A stretch of DNA of 64,000 nucleotides from Saprospiraceae bacterium. GTDB taxonomy: Bacteria > Bacteroidota > Bacteroidia > Chitinophagales > Saprospiraceae. The stretch covers positions 139,166-203,165 of the forward strand of contig JALHQW010000001.1 in assembly GCA_022841745.1 (NCBI GenBank), given 5' to 3'. How positions within the stretch are numbered: the first letter of the stretch is position 1; the number at the start of each line of letters is the position of its first letter. Of the stretch, positions 1,467 to 58,850 are shown piece after piece. The notes under the pieces were generated by a model, which saw only the letters and a program-made list of their open reading frames with translations, had not been told where the DNA came from and searched no databases. Made by a program: the position numbers and the translations under genes.

Positions 1467-1561
1467 AAGGATTGGGGGATTGAAGGTTTGAAGGATTGAA
1501 TAGTTAAGGCGTCTGCGTTCTATGTTATTCAATCCTTCAATCCTCCTCCCCTTCAATCCTT
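1467..1561. repeat. inverted pair of 4x8-nt arrays in curlin spacer
   Basis: The left array (1467-1498) has four 8-nt units, AAGGATTG, GGGGATTG, AAGGTTTG and AAGGATTG. The right array (1530-1561) has four units of CAATCCTT type in inverse orientation. A 31-nt loop separates them. The pair can fold into a long imperfect hairpin between the two curlin genes and may tune their relative expression. Confidence 0.7.
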
Positions 1562-2402
1562 AATTATTCGACTGCGTAACGGTGGCCGTATTGTTGTTGC
1601 CAATTTGGCGAACGATATTGGTGTGCTCGGCACCCGTTTGCGAGTTGATGGTCTTGTTTTCATCTCCTTCTTGGCGGATGGAGCTTGAGTTCAAATCGCC
1701 TTGTTGTACCAATAGGATGGAGTTGTTGTCTCCGATTTGGATCAGGCGAGGGTCGTTCCCGGCACCGGCGAAGTTGTTGTCGCCATTTTGCAGCATGTTG
1801 ATTTGGTTGATATTGCCTTCTACAGTAGCGCCCATGCTGTTGGAAATGCCGTTTTGTGTAACGACGTTTAGGTTGGCATTGCCAATGATGTTCAATTTGG
1901 CAAATTGGTTTTCTCCATTCTGTGCTTGGGCAGAGTTGTTGTTGTTGCCCTTCACGTCAATTTGAGCGGAGTTGTTGCCCACGCCAAGCTGCTGCTGAAC
2001 AGAAATATTGCTGTTGCCAAGGTGCGAAATCAAGGCCTTGCTATTGTTGGACTGCAGGTCTTGGTTGGCAATGTTCCCATTGCCATCTTGGGTAATTGTG
2101 GCCTTGTTCTTGTTGGCTTGGATGGTTGACACACCTTGATTGGCACTGCCAACTTGCTGGAGGAAAATATTGTTTTCGTTACCAGTGACTTGGTTCTCAG
2201 CTGTGTTGGTGCCACCGTTTTGACCCATCGAAAGGACGTTCAAATTTCCAGTGTGCTTAACCAGCGTTTTGTTCTGTGAACCCACTTGTGTTAGGTCTGT
2301 GCTGTTATTGTTGCCAACCTGCTCAAGATTGTTAGAGTTGGTTTGTGCAAAAACAGCACCTGCAAACACGAAGGAGGAGAAAAGGAGGAAATGCTTTTTC
2401 AT
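1560..2402 (-). CDS. curlin-repeat protein, major subunit-like (CsgA-type)
   Basis: This encodes 280 residues. The signal peptide MKKHFLLFSSFVFAGAVFAQ is followed by about eleven tandem repeats of the type Q.G..N....Q, rich in Asn, Gln and Gly (LEQVGNNNSTDLTQVGSQN, QNGENQFAKL, QIGDNNSILLVQQGD). This is the curlin signature of extracellular functional amyloid. The reading frame extends upstream to 2450, but the ATG at 2402 begins a standard signal peptide and was chosen. The gene is probably first in the operon, with the CsgB-like and CsgE genes downstream. The csgG and csgF genes expected in a complete system would lie outside the window. Confidence 0.85.
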   Translation of the reverse strand: MKKHFLLFSSFVFAGAVFAQTNSNNLEQVGNNNSTDLTQVGSQNKTLVKHTGNLNVLSMGQNGGTNTAENQVTGNENNIFLQQVGSANQGVSTIQANKNKATITQDGNGNIANQDLQSNNSKALISHLGNSNISVQQQLGVGNNSAQIDVKGNNNNSAQAQNGENQFAKLNIIGNANLNVVTQNGISNSMGATVEGNINQINMLQNGDNNFAGAGNDPRLIQIGDNNSILLVQQGDLNSSSIRQEGDENKTINSQTGAEHTNIVRQIGNNNTATVTQSNN

Positions 2403-2521
2403 AGGGAGTTCTTTTTGAAGAAAATGTGATGTTGACGCAATGTGATTCACGCATGAACCCCAAGCACCAGGATTATTAAGTTTTGATTTTGATGTATTAC
2501 CTTGAAATAGTGTGTAGAAAG

Positions 2522-2582
2522 ACCAGTAAAGTTTACGCTGCCAATTGTTGGCAACGAGCGTTGGAAATCAATACTTACTGGT
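2522..2582. promoter_or_regulatory. nested dyad upstream of curlin operon
   Basis: An inner perfect palindrome, TGCCAA-ttg-TTGGCA (2539-2553), lies inside an outer inverted repeat ACCAGTAA (2522-2529) / TTACTGGT (2575-2582). It sits in the 300-nt spacer between the divergent curlin and cupin genes. It could be an operator or a leader-RNA hairpin. No function is shown. Confidence 0.35.
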
Positions 2583-2748
2583 TCAGCTGCGTTGAGTGAG
2601 ATGGAATCCGAACGGGATGATGTAAATTGCTCTTAATAGTTTTGCAGCAAGGCAAAGGTAAGCACGGGATATTCTATCCACCAATCAGGGTTAAGCCGTA
2701 TTTTTCACCTACGTATTTTCACTTATAACGCATCAGAATTAGATTGTT

Positions 2749-3120
2749 ATGGTTATAAAACTCTTGGAAAAACAATGTTTTTTGGCTGGTGACCACACCC
2801 ATTTGAGGGAATTGCTGCACCCAAATACGAATCCTGAAAATACCTTGTTCAGCTTGGCCCATGCCTTCCTGGAAATTGGGGAAAGATCACTCTCGCACCG
2901 CCTAAAAAATTCTTCTGAAACCTATTTCGTCTTGGATGGGGAAGGTGAGATGCACATTGAGGGGCAATTATTTCGAATCTCAAAAAATGACATAGCGTTT
3001 GTTCCCGCCAATGCTACCCAATGGGTGAAAAACACGGGCCGCACACCACTTGTGTTTTTGTGCATCGTTAGTCCGCCTTGGTCGGCAACTGATGAAGAGG
3101 TCTTGGAGGAACGAAGTTAG
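2749..3120 (+). CDS. small cupin-domain protein
   Basis: This is a 123-residue single cupin barrel with no signal peptide. Cupin motif 1 is visible around residues 45-65 (SHRLKNSSETYFVLDGEGEM), with His and Glu ligands present. Motif 2 reads KNDIAFVPANATQWVKNTG, where the usual His is Gln, so metal binding may be altered. The ending VSPPW is common in small cupins of this class. The substrate cannot be predicted. The stop at 3120 is 43 nt before the glycosyltransferase ATG, so the two genes may be cotranscribed. Confidence 0.75.
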   Translation: MVIKLLEKQCFLAGDHTHLRELLHPNTNPENTLFSLAHAFLEIGERSLSHRLKNSSETYFVLDGEGEMHIEGQLFRISKNDIAFVPANATQWVKNTGRTPLVFLCIVSPPWSATDEEVLEERS

Positions 3121-3163
3121 TATTCCTGTTTGGCGGATTTTTCATTCTACTTTTGCGACAGCA

Positions 3164-4369: not shown

Positions 4370-4396
4370 AAATCAAAAATTTATAATTCTTTATTC

Positions 4397-5041: not shown

Positions 5042-5076
5042 CATTCATAATTCTACCATTTATCATTCATCATTTT
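5042..5076. repeat. 5x7-nt degenerate array in typA leader
   Basis: Five heptamers (CATTCAT, AATTCTA, CCATTTA, TCATTCA, TCATTTT) end 4 nt before the typA ATG. The array replaces the region where a ribosome-binding site would sit. It is the same class as the arrays at 46368 and 57119. Confidence 0.5.
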
Positions 5077-5080: not shown

Positions 5081-6901
5081 ATGGACATAAGAAACATCGC
5101 CATCATTGCGCACGTTGACCACGGGAAAACCACCCTCGTGGACAAACTCCTTGTAGCTGGCAAACTCTTCGGCGACCACGAAACGCCCGGTGAGCTTATC
5201 ATGGACAACAATGACCTGGAGCGGGAGCGTGGTATTACCATTTTGGCAAAAAACGCTGCTTTCTGGTACAAAGGCGTGAAAATCAATGTGATAGATACCC
5301 CTGGCCACGCCGACTTTGGCGGCGAAGTGGAAAGGGTGCTGAACATGGCCGACGGTGTGCTGCTGTTGGTGGACGCTTTTGAAGGCCCAATGCCCCAAAC
5401 CCGTTTCGTGCTTCAAAAAGCCATTGAACTTGGCCTTAAGCCTATCGTTGTCATCAACAAAGTGGACAAAGAAAACTGCAAGCCAGACGAGGTGCAAGAC
5501 CATGTTTTCGACCTGATGTTCAACCTTGGCGCCACGGAAGACCAATTGGACTTTCCAACGCTTTTTGGCTCTGCAAAGCAAGGTTGGATGGGCAAGGACT
5601 ACAAGACCCCAACTGGTAATATCACCCCGCTGCTCGATGCCATCATTGAGTACATTCCTGCACCCAAAGTGCATGAAGGTACTACCCAAATGCTCGTCAC
5701 CTCCCTTGATTATTCCAGCTATATTGGCCGGATTGCCATCGGAAGGCTGCACCGTGGTTCTTTGAAGGCGAACCAACAAGTAGCCCTTATCAAGCGTGAT
5801 GGTACTACCATCCGCCAACAAGTCAAAGGGGTTTACCTTTTTGAAGGCATGGCTAAGGTGAAGACTGAGGAGGTTCAGGCGGGCGATATCTGCGCAATCC
5901 AAGGCATTGAAGGCTTCGAAATCGGCGACACAATCTCCGACCTCGAAAACCCAGAGCAACTGCCACCGATCAGCATTGACGAGCCAACGATGAGCATGTT
6001 TTTCACCATCAATGACTCGCCATTCTTCGGGCAGGAAGGCAAGTACGTGACTTCCCGTCACATCCGTGAGCGTTTGGAGAAGGAGTTGGAGAAAAACCTC
6101 GCCCTTCGTGTAAAGGATGGTGAAACAACAGATTCATGGAGGGTATTTGGCAGGGGTGTATTGCACCTTGCCATTTTGATTGAGACCATGCGCCGTGAAG
6201 GCTACGAGCTACAAATCGGCCAGCCACAGGTAATCCTGAAGCGGGTGGATGGCCAGATCCACGAGCCAGTGGAAGAACTAACCATTGACGTTCCTGAAAC
6301 AGGTTCTGGTACTGCCATTGACATGGTGACTCGCCGCAAGGGCATCATGACCTCGATGGTTCCAAAAGGCGACCGGGTCATTCTGCGCTTTGAAATGCCG
6401 TCCCGTGGCATCATCGGCCTTCGTGGCAATTTGCTGACCGCAACAGCGGGCGAGGCCATCATGACGCACCGTTTCATAGAGTTTCAGCCCTATAAAGGCG
6501 AACTGCCCAAGCGCCAGAACGGTTCATTGCTTTCGATGGAGCAGGGGAAAGCCATTCCGTACTCCATCTTCAACCTGCAAGACCGTGGCAAGTTTTTCGT
6601 GGAAGCCAACGAGGAGATTTACGAAGGACAAATCGTGGGCGAGAATTCACGTCCCGGCGACATGACCGTGAACGTGACCAAGACCAAGAAGCTCACCAAT
6701 ATGCGTGCATCTGGTGCTGACGAAAAGACAAAACTGACACCTCCCATCCGTTTCAGCTTGGAAGAGGCGCTCGAATACATCATGGAGGACGAATACGTGG
6801 AAGTGACGCCAAAAAACATCCGCCTCCGCAAAATTTGGCTCAAGGATTTCGAGCGCAAGCGCTACTCCAAGTCCACGGAATTGGTAGAGGAAGAGGCATA
6901 A
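5081..6901 (+). CDS. typA: GTP-binding ribosome-associated protein TypA/BipA
   Basis: This encodes 606 residues, the usual length. The G1 motif [10 protein letters not shown]2 RGITI, G3 [14 protein letters not shown] and G4 NKVD are all intact. They are followed by EF-G-like domains and the BipA-specific C-terminal domain ([20 protein letters not shown]). BipA is a translational GTPase that binds the 70S ribosome near the A site and supports 50S assembly under stress. The start codon follows a heptamer array rather than a Shine-Dalgarno motif. The gene is closed by a strong terminator. A 332-residue open frame on the opposite strand is a codon-bias shadow. Confidence 0.97.
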
Positions 6902-12775: not shown

Positions 12776-15700
12776 ATGAACGAAAACGAGTACGCAAAGA
12801 AGCACATTTCTTTTCCGTCAGGTACTTGCCTACACGATATTTTCAGGCGGGAGGTGTCCCGTTGTCCAGATACAACTGCGCTTGTATTTGGCTCGCAATC
12901 AATGACTTATGCTGAACTTGATCGTAGGTCTGACGCCCTTGCCAGCCAACTTCTCCTGCTTGGCATTCAAACCGAAGACTTTGTAGCTATCTATTTAGAA
13001 CGCTCCTTTGAAATGATCATTGGCATCTTTGGCATCCTGAAAGCAGGCGCCGCCTATGTGCCCATTGACGTGGATTATCCCAAAGACCGAATGGCCTTAA
13101 TGGTCGAGGACTGCCAAGCCAAGGTCATCCTCACACAAAGCAATCTGAAAGAAAACCTGCCCCAATCCGTCGCAAAAATAATCTGCCTTGACCGACCCCT
13201 GCCGGCTTTCAATCCCGAGGTGTCGGGACAAGTTCCGCAATCCCCAATCCGCAATCCGCAATCGGATAGTTTAGCTTACATGATTTACACATCGGGAAGT
13301 ACCGGCAAGCCCAAGGGGTGCATGCTCACGCACGAAAACCTATGCAACCAACTTGAAGGCCAACAGGCCATTGCTCCAGCACCCATCGGAGCGATGATGC
13401 TAACCTGCTCCATTAGCTTCGATGTGTCTGTACTGACGATATTTTGGACATTGCTACAAGGTGCGCCCCTTGTATTGCCCAAACAGGGTGAGGAGAAAGA
13501 CATGGCGCAACTTGCTGATACTATTTTCAAAAACCAAGTTACACATATCCTCACCCTACCTTCTTTATATACCCTGCTGCTCGACCAAGCGCCAGCTCAA
13601 AAATTGCAGAGCATAAAATTGGTCAATGTCAGCGGTGAAGTTTGCCCCACATCGCTGGCGCAAAAGCATGAGCGCATCATCCCCGCAGGCCAGCTTTACA
13701 ACCTTTATGGCCCCACCGAAGCCACTGTCAATTGCACCTATTTCCGTTTTCCAATAGGCTTCCATGAGCCAAAGGCACCTATCGGCATCCCCATTCTCAA
13801 TTACGAGATTTTCATTTTGGATGAAAACATGCAGGAAGTGCCCCGTGGCGAGGTTGGTGAGATTTACATTGGCGGCTCAAAACCCGTCGTAGGTCGTGGC
13901 TACTGGAATCGTCCAGAACTGTCTGCTGAACGTTTTGTCAAACTCCTACCTTCTCACCCGCTCACAGCTCTCACGCTCTCGCCGCTCTACAAAACCGGTG
14001 ACCTCGCCCGCTGGCAACCCGATGGCAACATCGAGTTCCTCGGTCGCTCCGATTTTCAGGTCAAATTCAGGGGTTACCGCATCGAATTGGGTGAAATCGA
14101 GGCAGCCATATCCCAGCACCCCGCAGTACGGGAAACGGTGGTTTTGCTAAAAAATCCTCATCAGGTAAATGAGGGAAAGTTGGTGGCTTATATCGTGAAA
14201 AATACGGGTAAGTCATTGACCATCAGTGAAATGCGGGATTTCCTTTCCAGTTCTTTGCCCGACTATATGTTACCCTCTCATTTTGTCATGCTGGAGAGCA
14301 TCCCGCTCACGACCAACGGAAAAATTGACCGCGCTGCCTTGCCTGAACCTGCGGGCGACCGCCCTGAACTCGCCCAAGGCTACGAGGCCCCTGAAGGCGA
14401 CCTGGAAAATTTTATCGCTGAAAAATGGGAGGAATTGCTTGGCGTCAGCCCCATTGGCCGGCACGACAAATTCTTCGAACTGGGTGGGAACAGCATCCTC
14501 GCTGCCCGCTTCATTGGCGGACTGATGACGGCTTGCGAAGCCTCCATCTTCATCACCACCATCTTCGATCATCCAACCGTCGCTGATTATTCGGCATTTC
14601 TAGAAAAAAATTATGCAAACCTTCTTCCGAGGTTGCTGCACGACATAGTTTCCAATAACTATAATCCTTTGGCAATGGGGGCGGCTGAAAACAGTCGCTC
14701 CCAACATTTGACCTCGGCAGACCTCTTGAGATTTCGGACGTTGATCCCGAAGCACTTGCCCAGCCATCAGGAGGCAACGCCTCGAAGTGGTGGCACCGAA
14801 TCGTCCAGCGTCCAACGTCCATCGTCCGCCGGCGAACCCATCTTCATCCTCGCTCCTCCCCGCTCAGGCACCACTTTGCTACGTGTCATGCTAGCAGGGC
14901 ACCCCGGCTTGTTTGCCTGCAACGAACTGCAATTGCTTCATTTTGAGACACTTGCAGAACGGGAAGAAGCCTACAAGGGCAAGTTCGCCCTTTGGTCGGA
15001 AGGCTTGGTCAGGGCGGTGATGGAGCTCAACCATTGCGGAGCAGACGAGGCAAAACTGCTACTCCACAATTTTGCGAAGCAGGGTATGACCACCCGTGAA
15101 ATGTTCGAGCAACTACAAGAATGGGCAGGCGACCGCCTCCTAGTTGACAAATCACCGAGCTATGCCATTGACGCAGATGCCCTCGAAAAAGCCCTTGCCG
15201 ACTTCCCGAATGCCCGTTTTATCCATTTGGTCCGGCACCCTTATAGCATGGTGAAGTCTTTTGAAAAATACAATATGGACCAGGTGGTGTACCTGCATCC
15301 ACATGATTTTTCATCACAGAAATTGGGTGAACTTGTTTGGCTGGAAAGCCACCAGACTACTTTGGATTTTTTGAAGAAAATACCTGAGAACCAACAATTT
15401 AGAATGGTTTATGAGGACTTGGTTCAGCATCCCGAAACCATGATGCACGCAATGTGCGAGGCGCTCGACATCCCTTTTCACGAAGGCCTGCTCGAACCCT
15501 ACAAAGACCTTGATAAGAAAATGACAGACGGCATCCACCCGGACAGCCGTTCCATGGGGGACACCCATTTTGATAAAAAAGGAAAAATAGAAGCAAAAAA
15601 AGCAGAAGACTGGAAGGGCGTTTTGGAGGATAATTTTCTTTGCAATGAAACATGGAGCATAGCACAATCACTTGGTTATGAACCGTTTGGAAATTTAGTG

Positions 15701-18700
15701 GGCAAGTTAAAGGTTTCTGCCAACTCGGTGCAACCTATCACCCAACAATCCAACAATTCAACAATCCAGCAATCAAAATCAATTGCCATCATTGGCATGT
15801 CCTGCCGCCTACCTGGTGCCAACAGCATCGAGGAGTTTTGGCAAAACCTCCTAGAGGGCAAAGACGTCAGTTACCTTGTCACCGAGGCTGACCTTGAGGT
15901 GGAGGGAATCCACAATCCGCAATCCTCAATCCGCAATCGAGTAAATCGTATTTACGCCCTTGACAACCCATACGCTTTTGATGCCGCTTTTTTTGGCTAC
16001 CAGCCACGTGAGGCGGAGATGATGGATCCACAGCACCGCATTTTCCTCGAAACAGCTTACGAGGCCTTGGAGTCGGCGGGTTACAACCCTTACAAGTATG
16101 AGGGCAAAATTGGCCTGTTTGGCGGTGTAGCTCGCAATACGTATGCTTTGAATAACTTGTTGGCCAACAAGGAGTTATTGGAAACCAGCGGGGGATGGTA
16201 CCAAGAAATGTTAGCTTCTGACAGTACATTCAGCATCAGTCGGGTAGCGTATAAACTGAACCTTCGAGGCCCTGCTGTCAACGTCCAGACTGCCTGCTCG
16301 ACAGGTGGCGTGGCGGTGCATTTGGCTTGCCAAAGCCTCCTCGCTGGCGACTCCGACATGGTCATTATTGGGGGCGGACGGATTCAAGCGCCCGTGCTGG
16401 GTGGGTACGAGCAAGTGGATGGCGGGCCGCTCTCAGCCGATGGTTATTGCCGGGCTTTCGATGCCAATGCAAATGGCATGGTTCAGGGCCACGGTATGGC
16501 GATGCTTGTGTTGAAGCCCCTCGACAAAGCCATTGCCGACGGCGACCATGTTTGGTCGGTCATCAAGTCCACGGCCATCAACAACGATGGCTCGGACAAG
16601 ACGGGCATCACTGCGCCAAGTGCTAAAGGCCAGGCTGCCGTCATTCAGCAAGCAATCGAAAAAGCAGGTATTTCAGGCGACCAAATCGGCTATGTGGAGG
16701 CGCACGGAACAGGGACGTTTATTGGCGATCCGATCGAGATTGCAGGCTTGAGTGATGCCGTAACACGGACTGCCAGTCCGTGCTTTCCCACTCCAACTGA
16801 CCGCCAAGCTGCTAATGTAAAAGCACGGTCTGGCAGACCGTGTTACATCGGTTCTGTGAAAACCAATATCGGCCACCTCGACGCTGGGGCTTGCATTGCT
16901 GGTATCATTAAAACGGCGCTTGCATTGCACCACGAGCAATTGCCAGCCACGTTGCATTTCACGAAACACAACCCACAGATTGATTTTGGGAAAACAGGTT
17001 TTGAGGTAAATGCCGAGTTGCGAAGCTGGCCGAGAACTGAACAGCCTCGCTACGCAGGGGTTAGCAGCTTTGGATTAGGGGGGACGAATGCGCACATTAT
17101 TCTCGAAGAAGCGCCGATGAGAGTTCACAGTCCCCAGTCAGCAGTCTTCAGTCCGCAATTAATGGCGCTCTCAGCTAAGACCGACGAGGCAACTGCGATT
17201 TTGGTATCACAATTGTCAGACTTTTTCCAAAAAAACAAAGGCATCTCATTGGCCAATGCCGCCTACACCCTCGCCACTGGACGCCCGCATTTTGCGAAGC
17301 GAAACGCCCTGCTTTTTGCCGAAGGCAAAGAAAAACCAGAAGTTATAAGTGCATTACCGTCCTCCATCCACCGTCCATCGTCCATCGTCTTCATGTTCCC
17401 CGGTGGTGGCGCTCAGTACCTTGACATGACGAGGGATTTATACGAGTCGAACTGCTTTTTCAAAGAACAGGTGGACGCTTGCTTCGAGATTTTAGAGCGG
17501 GAGCACGATTTGGACATTCGGGGAACGGTCTTTCCGACCGCAATCAGCAATCCCGAATTCGCCATCGAAAATCCAGCGGCTGGCTTGGCATCGCTTTTTA
17601 CCATTGAATATTCTCTTGCTAAACTCTGGCAATATTGGGGCGTCCAGCCTACCGAATTGATTGGACACTCGATGGGCGAGTACACAGCCGCTTGTTTGGC
17701 TGGGGTGATGTCATTGAATTCAGCGCTTGGCTTGGTGACGGTGCGGGGCAAGCTTTTCGAGACCTTGGAAGGCGATGGCTGCATGTTGAGTGTGGCAGCG
17801 ACGGAGGAGCGTTTAAAGCCCTTCCTTGACAGTAACCATACAATTTCCGTTATCAATAAACTGGACAGCCTTGTGGTGAGTGGAACGGCAGCAGCGATTG
17901 ACCGCTTGCAGAAAAAGCTGATGCCTGCTGGCATTGATGCTTCCAAAATCCATATCAAAGTTCCAGCGCACTCACCGCTCATTGAACCGGTTTTGCCTGA
18001 ATTCAAGAAATACCTTGAATCGGTGGAATTGAAAGCCCCTCAAGTCCCAATTGTGAGCAACGTAACTGGCACTTGGCTCACTAATGAAGAGGCCACCAGC
18101 GTTGATTATTGGCTTCGCCATCTCCGCCAAACCGTCCGCTTTGCCGATGGCTTGAATACGCTCATGGAACCGTCAACCGTTGGCCGTCATCCATCAACCG
18201 ATAAAAAGAACCGTATCTTCCTCGAAGTGGGACCCGGGCAGACACTTTCTACGTTTGCCCGGGCTCTTCCCACTCTTCCCAACGAGGCTCGAATCATATT
18301 GGCATCAGTTCGGCACCCCAAAGAGGTGCGCAACGATGTCGAGTTCATCCTTCGCACCCTCGGCAAATTGTGGGTGAGCGGCGTGGACGTGGATTGGCAG
18401 GCGTTTTACGGTGGACGTGTTTACTCCCATGTGCCCCTGCCTACTTATCCATTTGAAAAGAAAAAGTATTTCATTGCACCGAAGCGCAGCGCCGAACCCC
18501 AGATCGGTAACGTGATTGCCCCAGAAATGACAACTGAATTAAAACAAATTCAAGAGGAATCGGGCTTCGGAATTATACCTACAATGAGCGAAACAAACAC
18601 ATCCCGCATCCCCAACCTCATCGCTGAAATCAAGGCATCGTTGCACGAGCTAAGCGGCATGGAACCCGCCCAGATGGATGCTTCAGCGAGCTTTTTGGAG

Positions 18701-21700
18701 CTTGGTTTTGACAGCCTTTTTTTGAGCCAGGCCATCATCCGTTTTAATCAGAAGTTCAAGTTGGAATTGGGTTTCCGAGTGTTGTTCGAAGAGGCACCGA
18801 CGATTGAATCGTTGGCGGATTATGTGGATGGCCTCATTGCGGAGGGGATGTTTGCGCCGGCTGTGACGCAGCCCATGAACCCTACAATGGCCCTCCCGCA
18901 GAATGACCTGCCGAGCCAAGCCGCACAAACGGTTGCACAACCAGCTGCGCAAATTCAGGTTTCTTCAAGCGTTTTGCCTTTGGAAAACGCTACCGCCGTC
19001 CAGCAAATCATCAACCAACAATTGCAGTTGATGCAGCAGCAGTTGGCGTTACTACAGGGGCAGCCTTTGACGCAGCCCACTTTTCAAGCGGCTGTAAACC
19101 AGTCAGTTGGCCAATCAACCACCCCCCAATTCCAAGGTGTCGGGACAAGTTCCGCAATCCGCAATCCGCAATCCGAAATCGAAAAGGCCGAGGTCGAAAT
19201 CCAACGCTCCACCAAGGGCGTCACCGCTAAACTGAACAGCTACAAGAAGATTTCAACAAGCGATGACTTGAGCGAAAAGCAGCGCCAAGGTTTGCAGGAC
19301 TTTATGCAGCGCTACGAGGCAATGACCCCAAAATCGAAGGCGATGGCACAACGCCACCGCCAGTATTACGCCGACCCCCGCTCGGTAACGGGCTTCAGCA
19401 AGCTATGGAAGGAGGCCTGCTACCAGATTGCCCATGAAAAATCAAAAGGCTCGCATATCTGGGACGTGGATGGCAACGAATACGTGGATTATGTGATGAG
19501 CTACGGCGTGGCGCTTTTTGGCCACATGCCCGATTTTGTGGAAAAAGCTGCCACGGCTGCCATACAGCGGGGCAATTCAATTGACTTGTTGCCGCCTGAG
19601 GCCACCGAAATTGCCCGCATGATCTGCGAGATGACAGGCTTTGACCGGGCAACTTTGGCGAACACGGGAACGGAGGCGGTTTTGGGCGCAGTCCGGGCTG
19701 CAAGAACGGCGACAGGAAGGGATAAAATCGCCGTTTTCGACACGGACTACCACGGCATGATTGACGAGTTCATGGTACGGGGCGTGCATTTTAAGGATGA
19801 AAACAAGTCGCTGCCCTCTTCGCCGGGTGTGCCCAAATACAATGTGGAGAATGTGCTGGTGCTGGACTACGACGACCCGAATGTGCTCCAAAAATTAGAG
19901 CGACATGCCAGCGAACTGGCTGCCGTTCTCATCGAACCAGTGCAGGCGCAGAACCCGCATTGGCAGCATGGGGAGCTAATCAAAAAAATTAGGCAACTAA
20001 CTGAAAATCATGGCGTTGCGCTGATTTTCGATGAAATAATCAATGGCTTTCGCCTCGACCAAAGAGGTGCCCAGGCCTGGTATGGGGTGGATGCTGACAT
20101 TTGCGCCTATGGCAAAAGTATCTCTGGCGGATTTCCGTTGGCTGCCATTGCCGGGAAGGCCAAATACATGAGTGCTTTCGACGGTGGCTATTGGGGCTAC
20201 GGTGACAATAGCTCGCCGGAAGGTGTTATCGCCTATTTTGCAAGTACATTTATCAAAAACCCCATCAGCGTGGCAGCGGCACATGCAGCGCTGAGCGAAA
20301 TACAACGTCTCGGCCCCAGCTTGCAACAGGGTTTGAATGCCAAAACCCAACAGTTTGCGGAGCGCATTCGTGAAATTTTCCTTCGGAAAAAAGCACCGCT
20401 GATGATTCAGGCTGCGTCCTCGTTTTTTATGATAAAAAATGCCGACGCCAGCCCGCTTACTCGCTTGTTCAATTACGTTCTCCGCACAAAAGGAGTTAAC
20501 ATCCGGGAACGCCCTTGCTTTATTTCCACTGCCCATACGGAGGTTGATTTCGAGCGAACTTATAAGGCTTTCGAGGAGGCAATTGATGAAATGATGGCGC
20601 TGGGATTAATGGAGGAATGGGTAGGGGAGGATTTGAATGTAGTGGTGGGTATTTCACCCGATGGACAACTTTCCGAAAGTTCTCAACTTTCGGAAAGTTG
20701 TCCATCGGGTGAAATACCCACCACTGAAGGTCAACAAGAAATTTTCCTTTCTGACCAGTTTTCAAAGGAGGCATCAAAGGCTTATAACATCGCCACAGAA
20801 ATAAAGCTGGAAGGCGATTTTGACGAAGGGAAAATGCGTAGTGCCTTGCAATCGTTGGTGGATAGGCACGAGGCGCTGCGGATGGTTTTTTTGCCTGACG
20901 GCAAAACGATGCAGGTGCTGCCGCAATTGGAGATGGATATTCCCTTCGTTGATTTGTCTTACGACCCAAATAGGTTAGCGGAACTCCACATCGAGGAAGC
21001 AGAGCACCTTTTTGATTTACAAAACGGACCGCTCGTTCGCTTCAAAATTATTCGCTTAGCAGAACAGGTTCACCTCGTTTTCATCAATGTCCATCACATC
21101 ATCTGCGATGGTTGGTCGTTGGGGATTTTGACGAGGGAGCTTGGAGAGACGTACGGCGCAGAGGTGACACCTTTTGGAAAGGTGTCACCTCTTAGCAGGC
21201 CCAAGCAGCTCAGCCAATTCGCCACGGAACAGGATAATTTACACCAAATTCCAGTTTTTGAAAAAAACGAAAAATATTGGCTTTCGCAATACGAGAACAG
21301 TGTGCCTGTCCTCGATTTGCCGACAGACTTTGCCCGCCCGCCCGTTAAGACCTTCAACGGTGCGGTCGAAAAAATCAGCTTCGATGCGGAGTTCACAGCG
21401 CAAATCAGAAAGGCTGCAGCCAAACAAGGAAGCACTTTTTATGTGTTCATGCTGGCTGCATATAAAGCCTATCTAAGCCGCATTACAGGACAAGAAGACC
21501 TCGTGGTTGGCGTTGCTGCTGCTGGGCACAACCTACCGGGCAATTCCAACTTGGTTGCCCATGCCATCAGCCTGCTGCCCGTGCGCACACAGGTGAATCA
21601 AAAACTGGAGTTCATGGAATACCTCAAGCACGTGAGAAAACAAGTGCTCGATGCTTTTGATCACCAACAATATACGTTTGGTGCGTTGTTAAAGAAGCTG

Positions 21701-28323: not shown

Positions 28324-28334
28324 TTTCTCTTTCC

Positions 28335-36745: not shown

Positions 36746-36746
36746 C

Positions 36747-41648: not shown

Positions 41649-41699
41649 AAAAACACAAACGGCAGCGGCATCAAAAATGCCACTGCCGTTTGTGTTTTT
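41649..41699. terminator. bidirectional terminator
   Basis: A long hairpin AAAAACACAAACGGCAG-c-GGCA / TGCC-a-CTGCCGTTTGTGTTTTT with a short A-rich loop lies between convergent genes. A and T runs on both sides suit termination in both directions. Confidence 0.85.
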
Positions 41700-42558: not shown

Positions 42559-45500
42559 ATGAGGAGTCATCAATCGCCATCTATTTATTCCATTTACCAT
42601 AACTGCCTTCCCTTCTATTTGGACAGGGTGGACATCTCCATGTTGGATGAAGAAACGCCCGGCTTTGCCGATGCTTTCTTGGAGGAACTGCTGTCCGGCA
42701 CCTTGGCAAGGCAGGTGGAGACAAAAGGCATTACAGCCGATAAAACAAGGCACCTTTATTTTGAAGCCCGGAATTTCCAGAAAATCCACGGCGCAAAAAC
42801 CTTTTCATTTGGGTTCCCGCTTTTCATAGACACGTACAACAGCGACTTGGTGGTTTCGCCTGCTTTCATTTGGCAAATGGAACTGGAACCTGCCCAGACC
42901 AAGGTTGACGCATGGGTGATTAAGCAATCAGCGCAAAAGAACATACAGCCAAATTATCGGCTGCTCGAACACCTAAAAGATAAATACGGCTTTGATTTAA
43001 GGCCAAAGGCCGAAGAATTGGCTTTTTCAAAAAAGATTTCCCTCGAACAAGTCACGAACTTTTGCAGTGAACTGGCAGCAAGGCTCAACTTGGAGATACA
43101 CGGTCATCCCCACGAGGTGCTTCCTTGTCCTGGCATTGACGAAATAGGCGATTTTACCCAAAAAGGCGCATTGCACTGGTCGGGGGTACTCGGCATGTTC
43201 CCACCACAGAACACCCGTTGGTCGCCGGGCAACGCCCGCCCCGAAGATATCTTTGTTGCCTCCACCGACACCGAAATTGAGGAGGCAATGTTTGCTTACC
43301 AGCCCGACGACCCGGAGCAAACTACTGCACTGGAATTGATTGCGAGGCAAAAAAATACTGTTGTAGAAGGAGAAGATGCCCTTGGCAAAGCTCAGACCTT
43401 GGTCAATTTGCTCATTAATGCTTTGTCGAATGGTAAAAAATGCCTTGTCGTTTCAGAACGATCTCAATCCTTGGGCTTTGCGCAGCAATTATTGGCAAAA
43501 GCAGGTATTTTCCAATACAATTTCCTGCTGGATGATGCCCTGCTCGACAAGATGCCCCTGCTCGAACTCCTCCGTTCAGCAGCAAGCGGAGGCGGCAGGG
43601 AGGTTATTTTCAATGCCCAGGATTTTGCTGGAAAAAAGACAAAGTACCTTCGGGCAAAGGAGGCAATGCAGGCAACTTACCAGGCTGTGAAAGACAAAGT
43701 GTTCGGGGACCACGATTGGACAGATACAGTTGGGCTTTTCATGGCAAGCAACCGCATAGAAGGCAAAGAGCGATTGGCCAGCCACTTGAACGCCAATGAT
43801 TTTGGATTTTACCCTGCCGAGCATCAACAACTGGTAGAAGGAATCCTAAGAAGCGAACCATTGTTTGAAGCCATAAAGACGCTAACGCACCCGCTGTCAA
43901 ATCTCAACGACCAGGTTTTCGTCAACTCAGAAGCCCAAAAGGCCAAGCAGTTCGTAGAGACCAACCTGCGGCTTTACGTAGCCAAGACCCATGAACTTCA
44001 AAAAGAATACATCAACCAGACTGATAGCTATGCTGCCAGATTAAAGGAACACTACCGGGATTATTTCAACAACTTGGATGCTCATGCGAGGTCGCTCGTT
44101 GAAAAAATCCAAAACCACACGGCCTTGCTCGGTGGGGATTTTGCCTCGGCTGGGTCTGGTTCTTTTGTTTGGCCTTCTTTTTTTTCATCGAAACGGAAAA
44201 AAATCAAACTGGCGCAAGAAGAAGTGGCCAAGGCGTACAAGGCTTTCGTCAAGCACTATGAAACCAATCCATATTTCGACTTTGGTTTTGCGCCCTGCAA
44301 AGACGGTGAAAACATTTCGAAGACCCTTGAGAACGCCCAAAAATTCAGGGAGGCGCTGGCCGCTTGGTATGCAAATTCAGATGGATTGGTGCAAGAGGAG
44401 GTCATGAGACTAAACAGCAAAACCGCTCATCCGGCCCTCGATGTTAAGGAACAAATCACTTCGTTGGAATTTGAACTGAACACGCTGATTGAAGAAATCA
44501 ATGAGGCTGGACTTTACCAAAAACCGTTCGAGAACAAGACGCTGACCATTCCTCAGCGACAGAAATACTTGGAAAGCATCATTGAGCAATTGGAGAACAC
44601 CCAGCTGAACCTCCGTGATTTTCCGCAGTTCCATGCTTGGCAGGCCAATTGGTTGGGCTTGGGTGGCCTAGGCCAAAAAGTGGTTCGGGCCTTGGTCAAG
44701 GTAAAGCCTGGCGATTGGGTGGCCGCTTTTGAAAGTTGGTACTTCAACAGCCTTTTGTCGAAGGTGCAATCGCCCGTTTTGCCAGAAGACAGCAATTCGA
44801 TCGTCCAATACAATGAGGCTTGGGGGCAATTCAGGCCATTGATTTTCAACCAGTTGACTACGCTATGGCAAGAGCGGCAAACCGCCGGACAAAAAGCCCT
44901 TAAAAAGAAAGACAAGCAGGCATGGCAATTGATTTTCGATAAAAACGGGCATAAGGCAGCTGTGAACATGCCGATGTCGGCCATATTCGAAAATAGCTTC
45001 GATGCCGTCACAGTTTACCTGCCCCTGCTTTTTGTGACCCCGCATGTTGCCCTAAACGAATTGCCCAATATTCCCAACTACTTCGATTATGTAATATTCG
45101 ACGAGGCCAACAAATTCCCCGTGGAGATGGCGACAGCCATTGCTCCGTTGGGCAAGAAAATGGTCATCATGGGCAGCAACGACAGCTATGGTAACGAAAC
45201 CAGCCTCTTGCAGTACGCATTGGAAAATGGCGTTCCGTCCGCATTAATCAGTAACCGATACGAGCCACCTGCACCCATCACTGGCTTGGTAGGTGGCGAT
45301 GCCCATTATCTCGACCACCGCATTAATTACCAAGTTGACAATGTGGAAGGCCGCTTCCATGAATTGGAGGGCACAAACGACACAGAGGCCCAGCACATCC
45401 TCCGTTTGTTGAATCAAATCAAACAAACGCCCCAACGGGTACTGCCATCGGTTGGTATCGTGACCTTCACCGTTGAACAGCGAGACTTGATAGCCAATTA

Positions 45501-46314
45501 CCTGCTTAAGCTGAAACAACAGAATGCACTCGGCAGTGAGAAAATCCAGCAATTGGAGCGCAATGGGATGGGCGTGTTCCATGTGGACGAACTATTCGGG
45601 CAGTATTTTGACATCATCATCGTATCGTGTACCTATGGGGCGGTGAACCTGAAGGGGGAAATGACCAAAAAAATGGTATTCCTGAACACCCCGGCTGGTG
45701 TTGGGCACCTGCGCATGTTGATCAACAAGCCGGTTGATGAATTCCATATTGTGCATTCTTTGCCAGAAGATTACCTCCAACAAATTGAAGCCACGAAATG
45801 GGAAGAAGGCACTTGGTACTTGGCTCATTTCATCCGATTGGCCGAGGCCATGAAAAATGGCAACCAGCCGCAATTAATGATTTCCAGCGAAGCACTTGGC
45901 AAACGTCAAGGTGTAGCGCATCTTCCTTCCATTTTTGCCAATGAAGTGGTGAGGGCCTTGGAGCCTTATATGGACGTTAAAAGGATTACAACAAACGTGG
46001 GTACTGAAAGCATCTATTTCCCAATGTTCGTAAAGCCGAGCCACGAAGGTGGAAGGCCAGTGGTGCTTGTACCCGATGGGCATTTTTCTGCTACGGCGTT
46101 TACCTCACCTCCTTGGGAACAAGACCAAGTTAAGACCATTGAAAAATCGGGCTTCGGTTACCTACCCATTTGGTCGGTGAACTGGTTGAAAAACCCCGGA
46201 GTAGAGGCAAGGCTTTTGGCCAGTAAGATCATCAAATTGGATTCAAACTCAGCAGGTATTGCCTCAAATGAAGATGCCGAATTGCAGGGATTGGAAGAGA
46301 AGTTGAGGGAATAG
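42559..46314 (+). CDS. degenerate SF1 helicase-nuclease-like protein
   Basis: This encodes 1251 residues. An N-terminal region precedes a DUF4011/AAA_11-type ATPase whose Walker A position reads VVEGEDALGKAQT, where families have GPPGTGKSQT; the Ser/Thr is Ala. A coiled-coil insertion occupies about 400-750. Walker B is VIFDEANKF, and the SF1 motif near the end reads LNTPAGVGHLRMLINKP instead of NVALSRA. The last 120 residues resemble the REase_MTES_1575 fold (PIWSVNWLKNP) but lack the usual E.DG..YH residues (LVPDGHFSAT). It may be a non-catalytic relative of the helicase-nucleases found in defence islands. No partner gene lies nearby. Confidence 0.65.
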   Translation: MRSHQSPSIYSIYHNCLPFYLDRVDISMLDEETPGFADAFLEELLSGTLARQVETKGITADKTRHLYFEARNFQKIHGAKTFSFGFPLFIDTYNSDLVVSPAFIWQMELEPAQTKVDAWVIKQSAQKNIQPNYRLLEHLKDKYGFDLRPKAEELAFSKKISLEQVTNFCSELAARLNLEIHGHPHEVLPCPGIDEIGDFTQKGALHWSGVLGMFPPQNTRWSPGNARPEDIFVASTDTEIEEAMFAYQPDDPEQTTALELIARQKNTVVEGEDALGKAQTLVNLLINALSNGKKCLVVSERSQSLGFAQQLLAKAGIFQYNFLLDDALLDKMPLLELLRSAASGGGREVIFNAQDFAGKKTKYLRAKEAMQATYQAVKDKVFGDHDWTDTVGLFMASNRIEGKERLASHLNANDFGFYPAEHQQLVEGILRSEPLFEAIKTLTHPLSNLNDQVFVNSEAQKAKQFVETNLRLYVAKTHELQKEYINQTDSYAARLKEHYRDYFNNLDAHARSLVEKIQNHTALLGGDFASAGSGSFVWPSFFSSKRKKIKLAQEEVAKAYKAFVKHYETNPYFDFGFAPCKDGENISKTLENAQKFREALAAWYANSDGLVQEEVMRLNSKTAHPALDVKEQITSLEFELNTLIEEINEAGLYQKPFENKTLTIPQRQKYLESIIEQLENTQLNLRDFPQFHAWQANWLGLGGLGQKVVRALVKVKPGDWVAAFESWYFNSLLSKVQSPVLPEDSNSIVQYNEAWGQFRPLIFNQLTTLWQERQTAGQKALKKKDKQAWQLIFDKNGHKAAVNMPMSAIFENSFDAVTVYLPLLFVTPHVALNELPNIPNYFDYVIFDEANKFPVEMATAIAPLGKKMVIMGSNDSYGNETSLLQYALENGVPSALISNRYEPPAPITGLVGGDAHYLDHRINYQVDNVEGRFHELEGTNDTEAQHILRLLNQIKQTPQRVLPSVGIVTFTVEQRDLIANYLLKLKQQNALGSEKIQQLERNGMGVFHVDELFGQYFDIIIVSCTYGAVNLKGEMTKKMVFLNTPAGVGHLRMLINKPVDEFHIVHSLPEDYLQQIEATKWEEGTWYLAHFIRLAEAMKNGNQPQLMISSEALGKRQGVAHLPSIFANEVVRALEPYMDVKRITTNVGTESIYFPMFVKPSHEGGRPVVLVPDGHFSATAFTSPPWEQDQVKTIEKSGFGYLPIWSVNWLKNPGVEARLLASKIIKLDSNSAGIASNEDAELQGLEEKLRE

Positions 46315-46395
46315 TAAATGAATGATGAATGATAAACTTGCAAATACCTATAATGTTAGGATAGCAAATTCATCATTCATCATTCATCATTTATA
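46315..46395. repeat. inverted pair of heptamer arrays between convergent genes
   Basis: The right array (46368-46395) is ATTCATC x3 and ATTTATA. The left region (46315-46342) reads TAAATGA, ATGATGA, ATGATAA, ACTTGCA, and pairs with it. It spans exactly the spacer between the helicase-like and fucosidase genes. Confidence 0.7.
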
Positions 46396-53895: not shown

Positions 53896-54706
53896 CACCT
53901 AAGTCTTTGTATTTCAAGGCTTTTGGCTCTTTTAAACAAGCAGTGCGGGTTTACCATCACATCTTCCCAGCATCCCACCAATGCCGTATTCGCCGAAGTC
54001 CTATTCCATGTCTTGGTGTCCGTTCGTGCCATTTGTTGTCCATTGTCAAGTGTTTTGTGCAATAAAACCTGCACAATCTACGAACAAACCAATGGTTTTT
54101 ACCCTGCTTGTACAAGATGGCAGAACCCTGTCATTTCAGCCCCAACCATAAATCGCAACAAGTTTTAAACTCCAATACATGTACTCCAACTGCTGCCAAA
54201 AGCTTCTATGCTGCTATTGATTGTGGTCGCCAAATTTATTGGGCTGACCTATGGACTTGAAGGGTTCAAACAGAGAATCAGGCATGAAATCAAGCGAGTC
54301 AGCCAAATAAATTTGGCGACTACAGTGCGAGCCGGACATTTGTCGCAGCCTCCTGAACAGCGGCTCATTTCGAATTATTTCTGCATAATGTCAATTGTTA
54401 CCTTCAATGGGGAATTGCCGATTCTCCACTGAATCAAATTCGGCACAATTTTCACAGGCCATCTGCTGTTAGATAACCATCGGAGGTTATAACTCCCCAC
54501 CACACTACTTTCCCACTAAATTTCATAGGCTATTCCATGTTGTTGTGATGCGCTATCAGCGCAATGGCACTAAACTTTTTCCCAACTATAAATCCCTGTT
54601 TTGAACAAATCATGACCAATGGCTGCCAACCCATGCCCTGGCTCAAGCTGATAACTTAATGTCAAGAATGAGATAAAAAATACTTACCCCCACAACACTG
54701 TTAAAA
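53896..54706. other. 811-nt spacer without recognised gene
   Basis: Open frames here have poor composition and no recognisable domain. The notable structure is a 23-nt inverted repeat at 54226-54248 and 54298-54320. Confidence 0.5.
54226..54320. repeat. 23-bp inverted repeat with 49-nt loop
   Basis: GTCGCCAAATTTATTGGGCT-GAC (54226-54248) and GTCAGCC-AAATAAATTTGGC-GAC (54298-54320) are reverse complements with one mismatch. The total length of 95 nt is close to that of the 87-90-nt palindromic elements in the megasynthase gene, but without inner palindromes. Confidence 0.75.
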
Positions 54707-55602: not shown

Positions 55603-55642
55603 GCAAGAAGGGCTGGTCGGCAAACCGACCAGCCCTTCTTGC
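55603..55642. terminator. perfect 18-bp bidirectional terminator
   Basis: GCAAGAAGGGCTGGTCGG-caaa-CCGACCAGCCCTTCTTGC separates the convergent protease and adaptor genes. Confidence 0.85.
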
Positions 55643-57110: not shown

Positions 57111-57118
57111 ATCTTAAG

Positions 57119-57153
57119 AATGATGAATGATAGATGAGGAATGATGAATGAAA
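57119..57153. repeat. 5x7 array upstream of adaptor gene
   Basis: The units are AATGATG, AATGATA, GATGAGG, AATGATG and AATGAAA, in the 74-nt spacer between the TolC-like and MacA-like genes. Confidence 0.7.
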
Positions 57154-57184
57154 CGGCCGCATGGTCCCGACCTCGTTTTTTTCA

Positions 57185-58663
57185 TCAATCTAATTTGATG
57201 GTTTTGCCGAGGTAGAAGTCCAGGATTTTCAATCTGAACAGGTAGTCGTATTTGGCCACCGTCAGGTTGGTCTGTGCGATGTCGTAGTTGTTCCTCGCCG
57301 TCAGCAATTGGAGGTTGTTGATGGCGCCCAATTGGAAACGCTTCTCGGCGTTCTCATAAGCCACCTTCGTCGCATCAATGGATTTTTGCGAAGCATCCAA
57401 GGTCTGCTTGGCATTCTTGGCGCTTGCAATCGCCTGTTGCACATCGTTTTTCAATTGTTGCTTGGTCTGGTCGCTTTGTAATTTGGCGTTCAGGATGTTC
57501 ACCTCAGCCCGTTGCACATTGATGTCATTTTGGCCGTTGGAGTAAATGGGAATGTTCAAGCCGACCCCAAAGCTCTGGCCAAAGTTGTCTCTTAGCTGGT
57601 CAAAATAGGGATAATTCAGAAAATTCTCCTTAAAATTAGGGGCATCGTATTCAACATTTAGTTCAGTTTCGCCCTGTCCGAGGTCAACATAGAATATTTG
57701 TGATTCCCGTACAGTCCCCAGGTTCAACAATTCAAACTGTTTAGCTGCATCCGACCACGAAGAGTTTAGGCTACCAAAAAGACTGAGTGTTGGGAAATAA
57801 CCCGCTTTTGCAAGATTTATCCCGACTTCAGAACTCCGCACCCGAAGTTCAGCTGCCGCCACTTGAGGCTGCGTATTCAGGGCCTGTGCATAGAGCGAAA
57901 AGAAATCCATGGCATCGGGGTTGGCATCAGCGGGAATGGTAAAGTCTGGCCGCTCCACTTTTATGCTTGTGGCTGGGTCAAGTTGCATAAAGTTTTTCAA
58001 GGTCAGGTAATTGATGTCAATTGCGTTCCTGGCCTGTACAATGGCCTGCTCGTCGTTGGCGATTTGTGCTAGTACATCCAAGCGATCATTGGCAGGCAGG
58101 GTGCCTGCGGCAATGCGTTTGTCAGTCTGGTCGAGTTGTTGCTGGGAAAGTGCCCGGCGCCTGTTCGCATTTTCCAATTGCTCCTCGGAGAGCAGCACAT
58201 TCAAATAGGCCGTTGCAATGCTCAAGGCAATATTGTTAAAGCTGGATGATGCATCCTGCTCAGCAGCTTTAAGGTCAATTTGGCCTTGTTTGATGGTATT
58301 GCTGATGCGGCCCCCGCTATAAACCGTTACGCCTGCACTCAACCCCATACTGTTGAAGGCAATGGTCTGGCTCCTGAATTCGTTGGAAACTGGGTCAATC
58401 GTGCGGCCAAACTGATAGCCAAGATTGGTGCTGGCACTTAGGCTAGGCAGCCTTGATAGTTGGTTTGCCTTATCGTTTAGGGCAGCCAATTGGATGCCAT
58501 TTTCAGCTTGTTTTAAGGCAATGCTATTAGTGCGGGCGTATTCTATGCATTGCTGCAATGACCAAATTTCCTGGGCAGAAACATTTTTTACAAAAAATAA
58601 GTTGGCCAAAAGGAAAGCGAAAACGAACGCTAGGAATGCTGTGTTGGAAGTCCTCAACTTCAT
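57185..58663 (-). CDS. TolC-family outer-membrane efflux protein
   Basis: This encodes 492 residues. A signal peptide ending in NVSAQ is followed by two OEP repeats (IWSLQQCIEYARTNSIALKQAE at the start of the first; ELRVRSSEVGINLAKAGYFPTLSLFGSL in the second) and a final coiled coil. It is a trimeric outer-membrane channel, operonic with the MacA-like adaptor. The frame opens at 58693, but the ATG at 58663 starts the signal peptide. Confidence 0.92.
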   Translation of the reverse strand: MKLRTSNTAFLAFVFAFLLANLFFVKNVSAQEIWSLQQCIEYARTNSIALKQAENGIQLAALNDKANQLSRLPSLSASTNLGYQFGRTIDPVSNEFRSQTIAFNSMGLSAGVTVYSGGRISNTIKQGQIDLKAAEQDASSSFNNIALSIATAYLNVLLSEEQLENANRRRALSQQQLDQTDKRIAAGTLPANDRLDVLAQIANDEQAIVQARNAIDINYLTLKNFMQLDPATSIKVERPDFTIPADANPDAMDFFSLYAQALNTQPQVAAAELRVRSSEVGINLAKAGYFPTLSLFGSLNSSWSDAAKQFELLNLGTVRESQIFYVDLGQGETELNVEYDAPNFKENFLNYPYFDQLRDNFGQSFGVGLNIPIYSNGQNDINVQRAEVNILNAKLQSDQTKQQLKNDVQQAIASAKNAKQTLDASQKSIDATKVAYENAEKRFQLGAINNLQLLTARNNYDIAQTNLTVAKYDYLFRLKILDFYLGKTIKLD

Positions 58664-58793
58664 GTTTTTAGTTGTTATGAAAATGTCTGGCAATGTTAGA
58701 AGCTATTCCTCCTTCCGCTTAAATAATTCTATCAACTACGGCCTATTTTGGATAAAAGGCAATGATGGGTTTGTTTTGAGAACAAATTCGCCT

Positions 58794-58850
58794 GCCAATT
58801 GCGGACTGCCAGCTGCATACTGCCAACTGCCAACTGTCAAACTGCCAACT
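58794..58850. repeat. eight-unit period-7 array abutting a stop codon
   Basis: The units GCCAATT, GCGGACT, GCCAGCT, GCATACT, GCCAACT, GCCAACT, one 8-nt variant, and GCCAACT end exactly at the TAA (58851-58853, reverse strand) of the next gene. Confidence 0.75.

Follow-up and report, generated by a model that had tools for sequence, protein, structure and literature searches.

How do short tandem arrays that share a unit length, and each of which repeats a word of only 7 or 8 nt, come to lie at so many places in one bacterial genome? The question is raised by a 64-kb stretch of a Saprospiraceae draft genome (G000:C1:139166-203165, hereafter the window; G000 denotes the source genome, 8.43 Mb or 8,428,107 nt in 178 contigs, other G numbers denote comparison genomes and L numbers fetched loci). 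Arrays of this kind are found throughout G000 and in its relatives. They have units of 7 or 8 nt, in some cases lie in frame within genes, carry different words at orthologous sites and, in the genus and in G330, a genome of another family, pair nearly always in one strand order. The best explanation, put forward tentatively, is slip-extension, in which G-rich 3' ends grow by words drawn from a common stock and the survivors are kept where the site is permissive.

Arrays in the window and in the genome

On one strand the arrays are poor in G (A 32, C 36, G 9, T 23%), and this strand and its complement are referred to as the C-strand and the G-strand. At 19 of the 22 array coordinates given in the initial annotation, Tandem Repeats Finder (TRF, minimum score 30) returned a row with a period of 7 or 8, or a multiple; the three that it missed (17128, 29905 and 36678) are degenerate and were recognised by eye, and 29903-29935 was also picked up by a lag scan. 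The array at 15743 has a period of 8. The arrays of the window, with open reading frames (ORFs) and the polyketide synthase/nonribosomal peptide synthetase (PKS/NRPS) domains near them, are:

1466-1500, minus strand: 8-nt array GAAGGATT, G-strand on plus; 5' arm of an intergenic hairpin whose arms were detected as inverted repeat 1488-1540 (TRF, by eye)
1528-1561, plus strand: 8-nt array TTCAATCC; 3' arm of the 1466 hairpin (TRF, by eye)
5042-5075, plus strand: degenerate ATCATTC array, C-strand on the sense strand, directly ahead of the BipA/TypA ORF 5081-6901 (TRF row 5057-5075)
13214-13263, plus strand: repetitive extragenic palindrome (REP)-like CCCGAGGTGTCGGGACAAGT at 13214-13233 followed by array TCCGCAA x4.3 at 13234-13263; in frame within the first AMP-binding domain, directly ahead of YTSGSTG, which we take to be the A3 motif (TRF)
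14802-14827, plus strand: array CGTCCAA/CGTCCAT, in frame, directly ahead of the PKS/NRPS sulfotransferase domain (TRF)
15742-15774, plus strand: 8-nt array CCAACAAT, directly ahead of the ketosynthase domain; another array in the G012 orthologue (TRF)
15907-15938, plus strand: array AATCCGC within the ketosynthase domain; AAATCGT in G012 (TRF)
17126-17158, plus strand: degenerate array CAGTCNN x4 within the C-terminal extension of the ketosynthase; G-strand of AAATCGT in G012 (by eye)
17356-17389, plus strand: array ACCGTCC, directly ahead of the acyltransferase domain; AATCGTC in G012, with an insert of equal length (39 nt) (TRF)
18168-18200, plus strand: degenerate array AACCGTC where the acyltransferase domain match ends; AAATCCG hairpin in G012 (TRF)
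19136-19180, plus strand: partial REP-like GGTGTCGGGACAAGT with array TCCGCAA x4.3 at 19151-19180 (TRF)
22506-22534, plus strand: array ATCCCTC, directly ahead of YTSGSTG of the second AMP-binding domain; AAATCCG hairpin in G012, a different insert in G008, an ordinary linker in G004 (TRF)
28448-28483, minus strand: perfect array ATTTCGG x5.1, G-strand on plus, 34 nt ahead of the TonB-receptor ORF 28518-31151 (TRF)
29903-29935, minus strand: G-strand 5' arm, word GAGGGAT, of an in-frame coding hairpin of the TonB-dependent receptor (lag scan, by eye, inverted repeat)
29952-29980, plus strand: C-strand 3' arm of the same hairpin (TRF, lag scan)
33396-33443, minus strand: 8-nt array GGATTGTT; 5' arm of a hairpin between the ABC-ATPase and MlaD ORFs, overlapping the called start of the latter (TRF, inverted repeat)
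33456-33486, plus strand: 8-nt array CAACAATC x3.9; 3' arm of the 33396 hairpin (TRF, inverted repeat)
36678-36710, minus strand: degenerate 5' arm GAAGGTATG... of a hairpin between convergent ORFs, its end set by eye
36719-36748, plus strand: array CATACCT/CATACCTT; 3' arm of the 36678 hairpin (TRF)
46318-46333, minus strand: array ATGAATG; 5' arm, directly past the stop of ORF 42559-46314 (TRF, inverted repeat)
46368-46391, plus strand: array ATTCATC x3.4; 3' arm of the 46318 hairpin (TRF, inverted repeat)
57118-57151, minus strand: array GAATGAT, C-strand on the sense strand, directly ahead of an HlyD-type ORF (TRF)
58792-58850, plus strand: array CTGCCAA x8.3, G-strand on the sense strand, directly past the stop of ORF 58851-59951, which is on minus (TRF)

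In the window, 10 lag-7 segments scored at least 11, compared with a mean of 0.02 and a maximum of 1 in 60 order-3 Markov simulations, and 4 lag-8 segments were found against 0 simulated; the other lags from 4 to 13 gave none, apart from a single segment at lag 12. The 4016-aa PKS/NRPS ORF alone holds 6 lag-7 segments, against 0.04 in 200 synonymous-codon shuffles and 0.01 in 200 codon-order shuffles. A sample of G000 (1,263,165 of 8,428,107 nt, 15%) contained 89 lag-7 and 51 lag-8 segments scoring at least 12, against 0.0 and 0.33 in three order-4 Markov simulations, and ATCC-type four-unit 7-mers gave 186 overlapping matches in the whole genome and 0 in the control. The enrichment is confined to lags 7 and 8 plus their multiples. 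Similar numbers of arrays in a null model had been named in the initial annotation as grounds against it; simulations and shuffles yield practically none.

In the genome sample 170 arrays were counted, and the period is 7 nt in 109 of them and 8 nt in 61. It had been proposed that every array has a private unit and that the copy number is fixed at four. Instead, 70 canonical words account for the 170 arrays, the commonest being AATCCTTC (16 times), AATCCGC (11) and AGCATCC (9), and the copy number ranges from 2.5 to 38. Of 161 7-nt arrays, 60 fall in a hump at 27-35 nt and 53 in a second peak at 15-20 nt, close to the limit of detection; the lengths of the 8-nt arrays are broadly spread. In G012 the commonest word is AAATCCG, with 51 arrays; G330 has a set of its own (AACATCC, ATCCGTC, ATCTGTC) and a single lag-8 segment against the 51 of the G000 sample. 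The words come from a common stock with a bias by species. Four-unit arrays of the ATCC type were present in 24 of the 119 genomes from the order, and an AATCC hairpin pattern in 2 of 296 Bacteroidota genomes, G000 counted. Very long arrays were also seen, of AAAACCCC (x38), ACCCTCTC (x13) and AGCATCC (x17-18, at contig ends), at L089:11944-12246, L013:3178-3279, L101:1-119 and L127:1-255; those at contig ends are possibly assembly breakpoints.

Simple ORF labels place 122 of 166 arrays between genes and 31 within coding sequence, with 13 only partly coding, yet intergenic-labelled sequence makes up 17.5% of the sample and coding-labelled sequence 82.5%. At least one of the ORF calls behind the coding labels, in G012 (L277), looks doubtful. 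Arrays longer than 80 or 110 nt were left out of the pair and location counts, and arrays with |C-G| < 3 out of the strand and pair counts.

Order of paired arrays

Four of the five pairs in the window (1467/1530, 29905/29951, 33396/33456 and 46318/46368) are the reverse-complement arms of hairpins, detected as inverted repeats with exact arms of 13 nt; the fifth, 36678/36718, is degenerate and visible by eye. Neighbouring arrays no more than 80 nt apart were scored as G>C where a G-strand array is followed by a C-strand array (convergent), and as C>G for the reverse. Across the stretches analysed from G000, G012, other members of the genus and G330, 82 pairs were G>C, 2 were C>G and 17 lay on the same strand. 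G330, sampled from a 3.15-Mb contig with 14 of 20 stretches picked for array matches, contributed 30 G>C pairs and no C>G pair. One of the two C>G cases, in L106, is the junction between two tandem hairpins, and the other is L121:389-474. A composition-symmetric test gave the same picture: the pattern GGAT..GGAT > ATCC..ATCC had 239 overlapping matches in 10 of 14 whole genomes, against 7 for the reverse pattern in the same 14, and the reverse pattern had no match across the whole G012 genome. All 7 belong to one different palindrome of G003 and G005, ATCCCGAATCCCGAA..TTCGGGATTCGGGAT, which has the opposite (C>G) order. A looser test of the G000 sample found an inverted partner within 160 nt for 73 of 164 arrays, and by composition 68 of these are in G>C order.

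The order is kept where the arms pair poorly and where the pairs lie in genes. Eight poorly complementary pairs (score 0.07-0.44, under half of full) are G>C, five in G330 and three in G012, and none is C>G. Pairs labelled coding number 20 G>C against 0, with 14 of the 20 from loci chosen by G>C matches; the G012 loci came mostly from contigs with such matches, so that 14 of 19 coding pairs are ascertained, and the other 5 lie in L128, which was taken before that choice. The arms themselves match at 0.91 in the best register and 0.87 in other in-phase registers, at a unit purity of 0.92 (n = 21). The two arms use the same word but match each other hardly better than the units inside one arm do, and selection for exact pairing is unsupported.

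Orthologous sites

Proteins at G000 array sites were named with Pfam and NCBIfam on joined flanks, a clade tree was built from the concatenated flanks of array sites, and the presence of arrays at orthologous sites was scored by eye. Two named relatives, matched via one window protein, are Saprospiraceae metagenome-assembled genomes. In the linker of the Lnt N-terminal domain, arrays are present in 8 of 13 orthologues, namely all eight members of clade A, and the words include AATCCTTC, AATCCGC, AATCGTC, AAACCTG, AACCGTC and AAATCCG; the G011 array has a period of 9 nt. The MetG linker carries arrays in 6 of 12 orthologues, with the word AACAATTC common to the non-sisters G000 and G013, whose sisters bear other words. 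At the TonB receptor site, a strand-aware comparison found arrays in 6 of 11 orthologues and ordinary linkers in the other five; the word is GAGGGAT in G000 and G008, ATTTCGG in G012, ATCCGCC in G001 and AACAACC in G007, and G004 has an AGTTGGC array followed by an AATCCGC array.

In the PKS/NRPS orthologue of G012 (L128), all six comparable sites of the nine arrayed in the window are arrayed in both genomes, with different words. Arrays were likewise present in some orthologues of an FG-GAP protein (3 of 8), an alpha-amylase-like protein (4 of 6), a 4Fe-4S protein (4 of 12) and a histidine kinase (1 of 6). For the RNase H linker the count was 3 of 13, with one C-rich G012 linker left uncounted. 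The gap between the OEP and HlyD genes, where the window has its array at 57118, holds arrays or repeat hairpins in 6 of 13 genomes, with four words. Relatives with the arrays as ordinary conserved coding sequence had been named at the outset as evidence against the idea, and the comparison does not show this: orthologues bear other words or ordinary linkers at the same site. Every insert listed for these sites is a multiple of 3 nt long, which makes translational bypassing of the coding hairpins unlikely. At the 4Fe-4S protein site, G011, G006 and G004 (L192, L173 and L164) have ACGGACGGCCCGTCCGT-type palindromes where others bear heptamer arrays.

Origin of the arrays

These observations can be accounted for, though with less than even confidence, if the arrays form a population spread over the genome, made up of G-poor heptamer and octamer repeats that mostly arose in place and were not brought by one mobile element. 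Wherever there is a stall or a break, a G+T-rich 3' end would slip back by 7-8 nt and be recopied repeatedly, the seed word being local or taken from another array, and the G-strand would consequently grow away from the retained sequence. Extension from both sides of one point would leave a convergent pair (G-arm, loop, C-arm), which might form a hairpin if the same word were used on both sides and a poorly pairing composite if the words differed. Survivors would be retained where extra DNA is harmless, in intergenic gaps and, in multiples of 3 nt, in loops and linkers of proteins; later homogenisation and whole-word replacement could then make species differ in the word at one site. The growth at 3' ends, the seeds and the neutrality of the survivors are what we infer from this pattern. 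Slip-extension is favoured because it fits an order that is kept without complementarity and inside ORFs, an arm word that is shared, and words that differ at fixed sites. The 27-nt gain at the kinase site described below, beside a similar 7-mer, and the concentration of arrays in intergenic sequence also count in its favour.

Several results weigh against slip-extension. The pair at L121:389-474 is a genuinely reversed pair in G000 itself, and the remaining five partnered arrays of the looser test are C>G; of these, three are read as mis-assigned strands and two as both arms of one real exception. In 296 Bacteroidota genomes, AATCC patterns were G>C in G000 by 18 to 0, and elsewhere two were G>C (G293) and two C>G (G293 and G213), so that at 2 against 2 the pair order is not established for the phylum beyond the genus and G330. 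The reversed heptamer hairpins are L203 (G213:C27) and L204 (G293:C40), and because of these two pairs confidence is lower in slip-extension and in the telomerase-like reading given below. Many palindromic inserts at array loops are of the non-array kind. A REP-like hairpin, CCCGAGGTGTCGGGACAAG, together with an AATCCGC array recurs at four places in the G000 sample and at one in G006, and this recurring composite and the dominance of one word in G012 resemble copying between loci. When array sequence was masked, matches were obtained for 80 of 332 flanks, compared with 14 of 332 control flanks. No array gain between strains was caught, the closest relative of G000, G011, being only 88% identical over concatenated segments, and a seed is visible at one site only.

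Alternative explanations

The main rival, possible if doubtful, is that whole hairpins were inserted, often in frame, as mobile palindromes of the Rickettsia palindromic element, REP or miniature inverted-repeat transposable element (MITE) kind, served by a transposase in trans; their arms would turn into tandem arrays later or be array-like from the outset. Such insertion may contribute. In G012, in-frame hairpins interrupt AroB, PheT, ArgS and MurC, which suits such insertion, and also an SNF2-type helicase and an Oxidored_FMN/Pyr_redox protein. All of seven G012 ORFs match their family in Pfam, the insert in L266 falling outside the domain match, and of five ORFs compared with NCBIfam, AroB, PheT, ArgS and MurC pass the cut-off and the OYE-type protein fails; the C-terminal profile match of AroB stops at the insert. 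The rank of AAATCCG as commonest word of G012 and the recurring REP-like composite also suit mobile palindromes, as does a 161-nt palindromic (MITE-like) family whose terminal inverted repeats contain AAAACCCG octamers, present at five places (L089:13778, L089:19075, L111:17010, L107:7438 and L022:15507).

Non-array palindromes at the same protein loop point in the same direction. One, near-perfect and non-repetitive with about 40 bp per arm and a short loop, lies in frame in the PKS/NRPS ORF at window 20641-20725. This is a loop in the region of a condensation domain where G012 has a heptamer hairpin and G004 and G008 have other inserts with inverted repeats. In the G000 sample, a simple test that includes terminators counted 37 inverted repeats of the array kind and 249 of the non-array kind; one simulation gave 3. 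Because non-array palindromes occupy the same loop and abound in the sample, the heptamer hairpins are one class within a broader habit of palindromic inserts. A second, short palindrome of the PKS/NRPS ORF is at window 21160-21192, and inverted repeats without heptamer arrays, some of them perhaps terminators, are at 41649-41699, 54226-54320, 55603-55642 and 28334-28369. The REP-like element CCCGA-N4-TCGGGACAAG is found at window 13214-13233 and, in part, 19136-19150, joined to AATCCGC arrays, and L014, L015 and the G006 RNase H linker hold it as well; a similar REP-like hairpin with AACTGCC-like arrays gave four matches in L104 and L113.

What counts against mobile palindromes is the lack of common surroundings. 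The matching flanks form 71 pairs (controls, 7), of which 35 are from the same place, 17 from the 161-nt family and 19, including some duplicates, from other places. Shared flanks are thus confined to a minority of the arrays, 91 of 164 arrays lack an inverted partner within 160 nt, and some pairs have different words in their two arms. With only 19 of the 71 pairs joining other places, the initial view that the arrays are not copies of a single mobile repeat is borne out. A larger mobile element behind the arrays is unsupported, since most arrays have no common flank.

Less probable, and on balance unlikely, is that the arrays are selected regulatory or structural elements, acting as RNA hairpins, G-quadruplexes or untranslated-region signals, as proposed for Xanthomonas and Nostoc. 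Of arrays at most 60 nt ahead of predicted starts, 47 of 57 in G000 (26 of 31 for unpaired arrays) and 19 of 26 in G330 have the C-strand as sense strand, and past stops the G-strand is sense in 36 of 41 cases in G330; Rehm 2015 (PMC4692102) describes the same gene polarity. At least four GG tracts are present in 64 of 166 arrays. The bias past stops is weak in G000 (33 of 57), however, and G012 has 22 of 43 past stops and 15 of 25 ahead of starts, while 40 of 166 arrays have no GG tract, which rules out G-quadruplexes as a common cause. The orientations of flanking genes (-- 36, ++ 32, +- 14, -+ 14) follow the intergenic background (196, 192, 92 and 111). Also contrary to selected function are the order kept by coding-labelled pairs, arms that pair hardly better than words match, and words that are swapped or missing in relatives. 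A role in untranslated regions is possible for some arrays. Terminators are disfavoured, as contexts track the background and TTTT lies within 10 nt outside the arms in 1 of 12 G000 pairs, no terminator scan having been run.

Plain replication slippage at chance seeds, with arrays independent and words never exchanged, is improbable. It would explain the histidine kinase site (L093), where G000 has a clean 27-nt insertion relative to four relatives, next to CAGTTG and beside a similar 7-mer, the compared proteins being 36-61% identical and possibly paralogues. At this one site the initial suggestion of a local or variable seed is plausible; the private heptamer that went with it is unsupported. 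A 7-nt step also agrees with a polymerase contact of about 7 nt (Mrazek 2007, as cited in PMC4679880 and PMC4692102). Plain slippage, however, does not predict the pair order, the recurrence of words at unlinked loci and in several species, or octamers that are frequent in G000 and nearly absent from G330.

A bolder reading, and a very unlikely one, is that bacteria have a dedicated system which extends free 3' ends at breaks with short templated G-rich repeats of 7 or 8 nt before joining the ends. A hypothetical telomerase-like or template-switching polymerase would serve as break repair, with the species-specific words as its template. A G-strand running toward the junction on both sides is the order of head-to-head interstitial telomeric repeats, and the likeness persists even when the arms bear different words. 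Finally, chance, assembly error or conserved coding sequence, for which it can be said that G000 is a draft of 178 contigs, is refuted by nulls close to zero, by the same arrays on the 3.15-Mb G330 contig and by orthologues that vary at array sites.

Comparison with known systems

Heptamer arrays have previously been noted phylum by phylum without a mechanism, the STRR heptamers of cyanobacteria among them. Among the closest systems are the GGGAATC and GGGGA(C/T)T repeats of Xanthomonas and Nostoc (PMC4692102), which are likewise dispersed 7-nt arrays enriched between genes (122 of 166 here, with lag-7 segments at 89 against 0) and set in convergent pairs (82 against 2 here). In Xanthomonas the arrays prefer four units and form convergent pairs (Rehm 2015, PMC4692102). 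The four-unit preference may have a counterpart in the hump at 27-35 nt here, beside the peak at 15-20 nt and the broad 8-nt lengths, and the polarity, with the G-strand past stops and antisense ahead of starts, is similar. That study describes one G-quadruplex-forming heptamer type per genome, with GGG/GGGG units, whereas here there are 70 words plus 8-mers, arrays that lack a GG tract, two-word composites and in-frame hairpins in conserved genes (PMC4692102).

In the P6b stem of the Nostoc trnL intron (Kaasalainen 2015, PMC4476775), a stem is also made of 7-nt repeats, and one word class, Class I TDNGATT or Class II NNTGAGT, is repeatedly replaced by the other at a fixed site. That case concerns a single intron locus and two classes, against many loci and many words here, and neither an Rfam match at gathering score nor a tRNA was found in the 64-kb window that would point to a tRNA-Leu group I intron setting. 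The TAACTGA repeats of Beggiatoaceae, Cyanobacteria and five Bacteroidetes (MacGregor 2015, PMC4679880) are dispersed heptamer arrays, often ahead of start codons and patchy across phyla, so that the initial statement that Bacteroidota have no counterpart was too strong; that study tracks one word, and related heptamers are seldom repeated in the BOGUAY genome.

Rickettsia palindromic elements (PMC10969869) are palindromes in frame within unrelated genes, as are the hairpins in AroB, PheT, ArgS, MurC and the TonB receptor of the window. They form families of related sequences of about 150 bp, whereas here a heptamer grammar is common, the inspected loops differ, and family sequence beyond the repeat unit is mostly missing, as the 71 flank pairs indicate. 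The tandem repeats of Borgs (PMC9879509) are also fast-evolving, independently arising and both intergenic and within ORFs; they belong to archaeal extrachromosomal elements, and the abstract does not mention convergent pairs. A literature search, with subscription papers mostly outside its scope, found no description of a many-word, in-gene Saprospiraceae version.

One genus supplies many sites, ordered pairs, array-free alleles and differing words, and makes the origin of such arrays testable from sequence data; the presence of in-frame hairpins within essential enzymes also suggests how neutral DNA could give proteins new peptide loops. Each published parallel (Rehm, Kaasalainen, MacGregor and the Rickettsia elements) has some and not all of the features seen here. 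The kind of array is already known in other bacteria, and what this case adds is the many words and the hairpins within genes.

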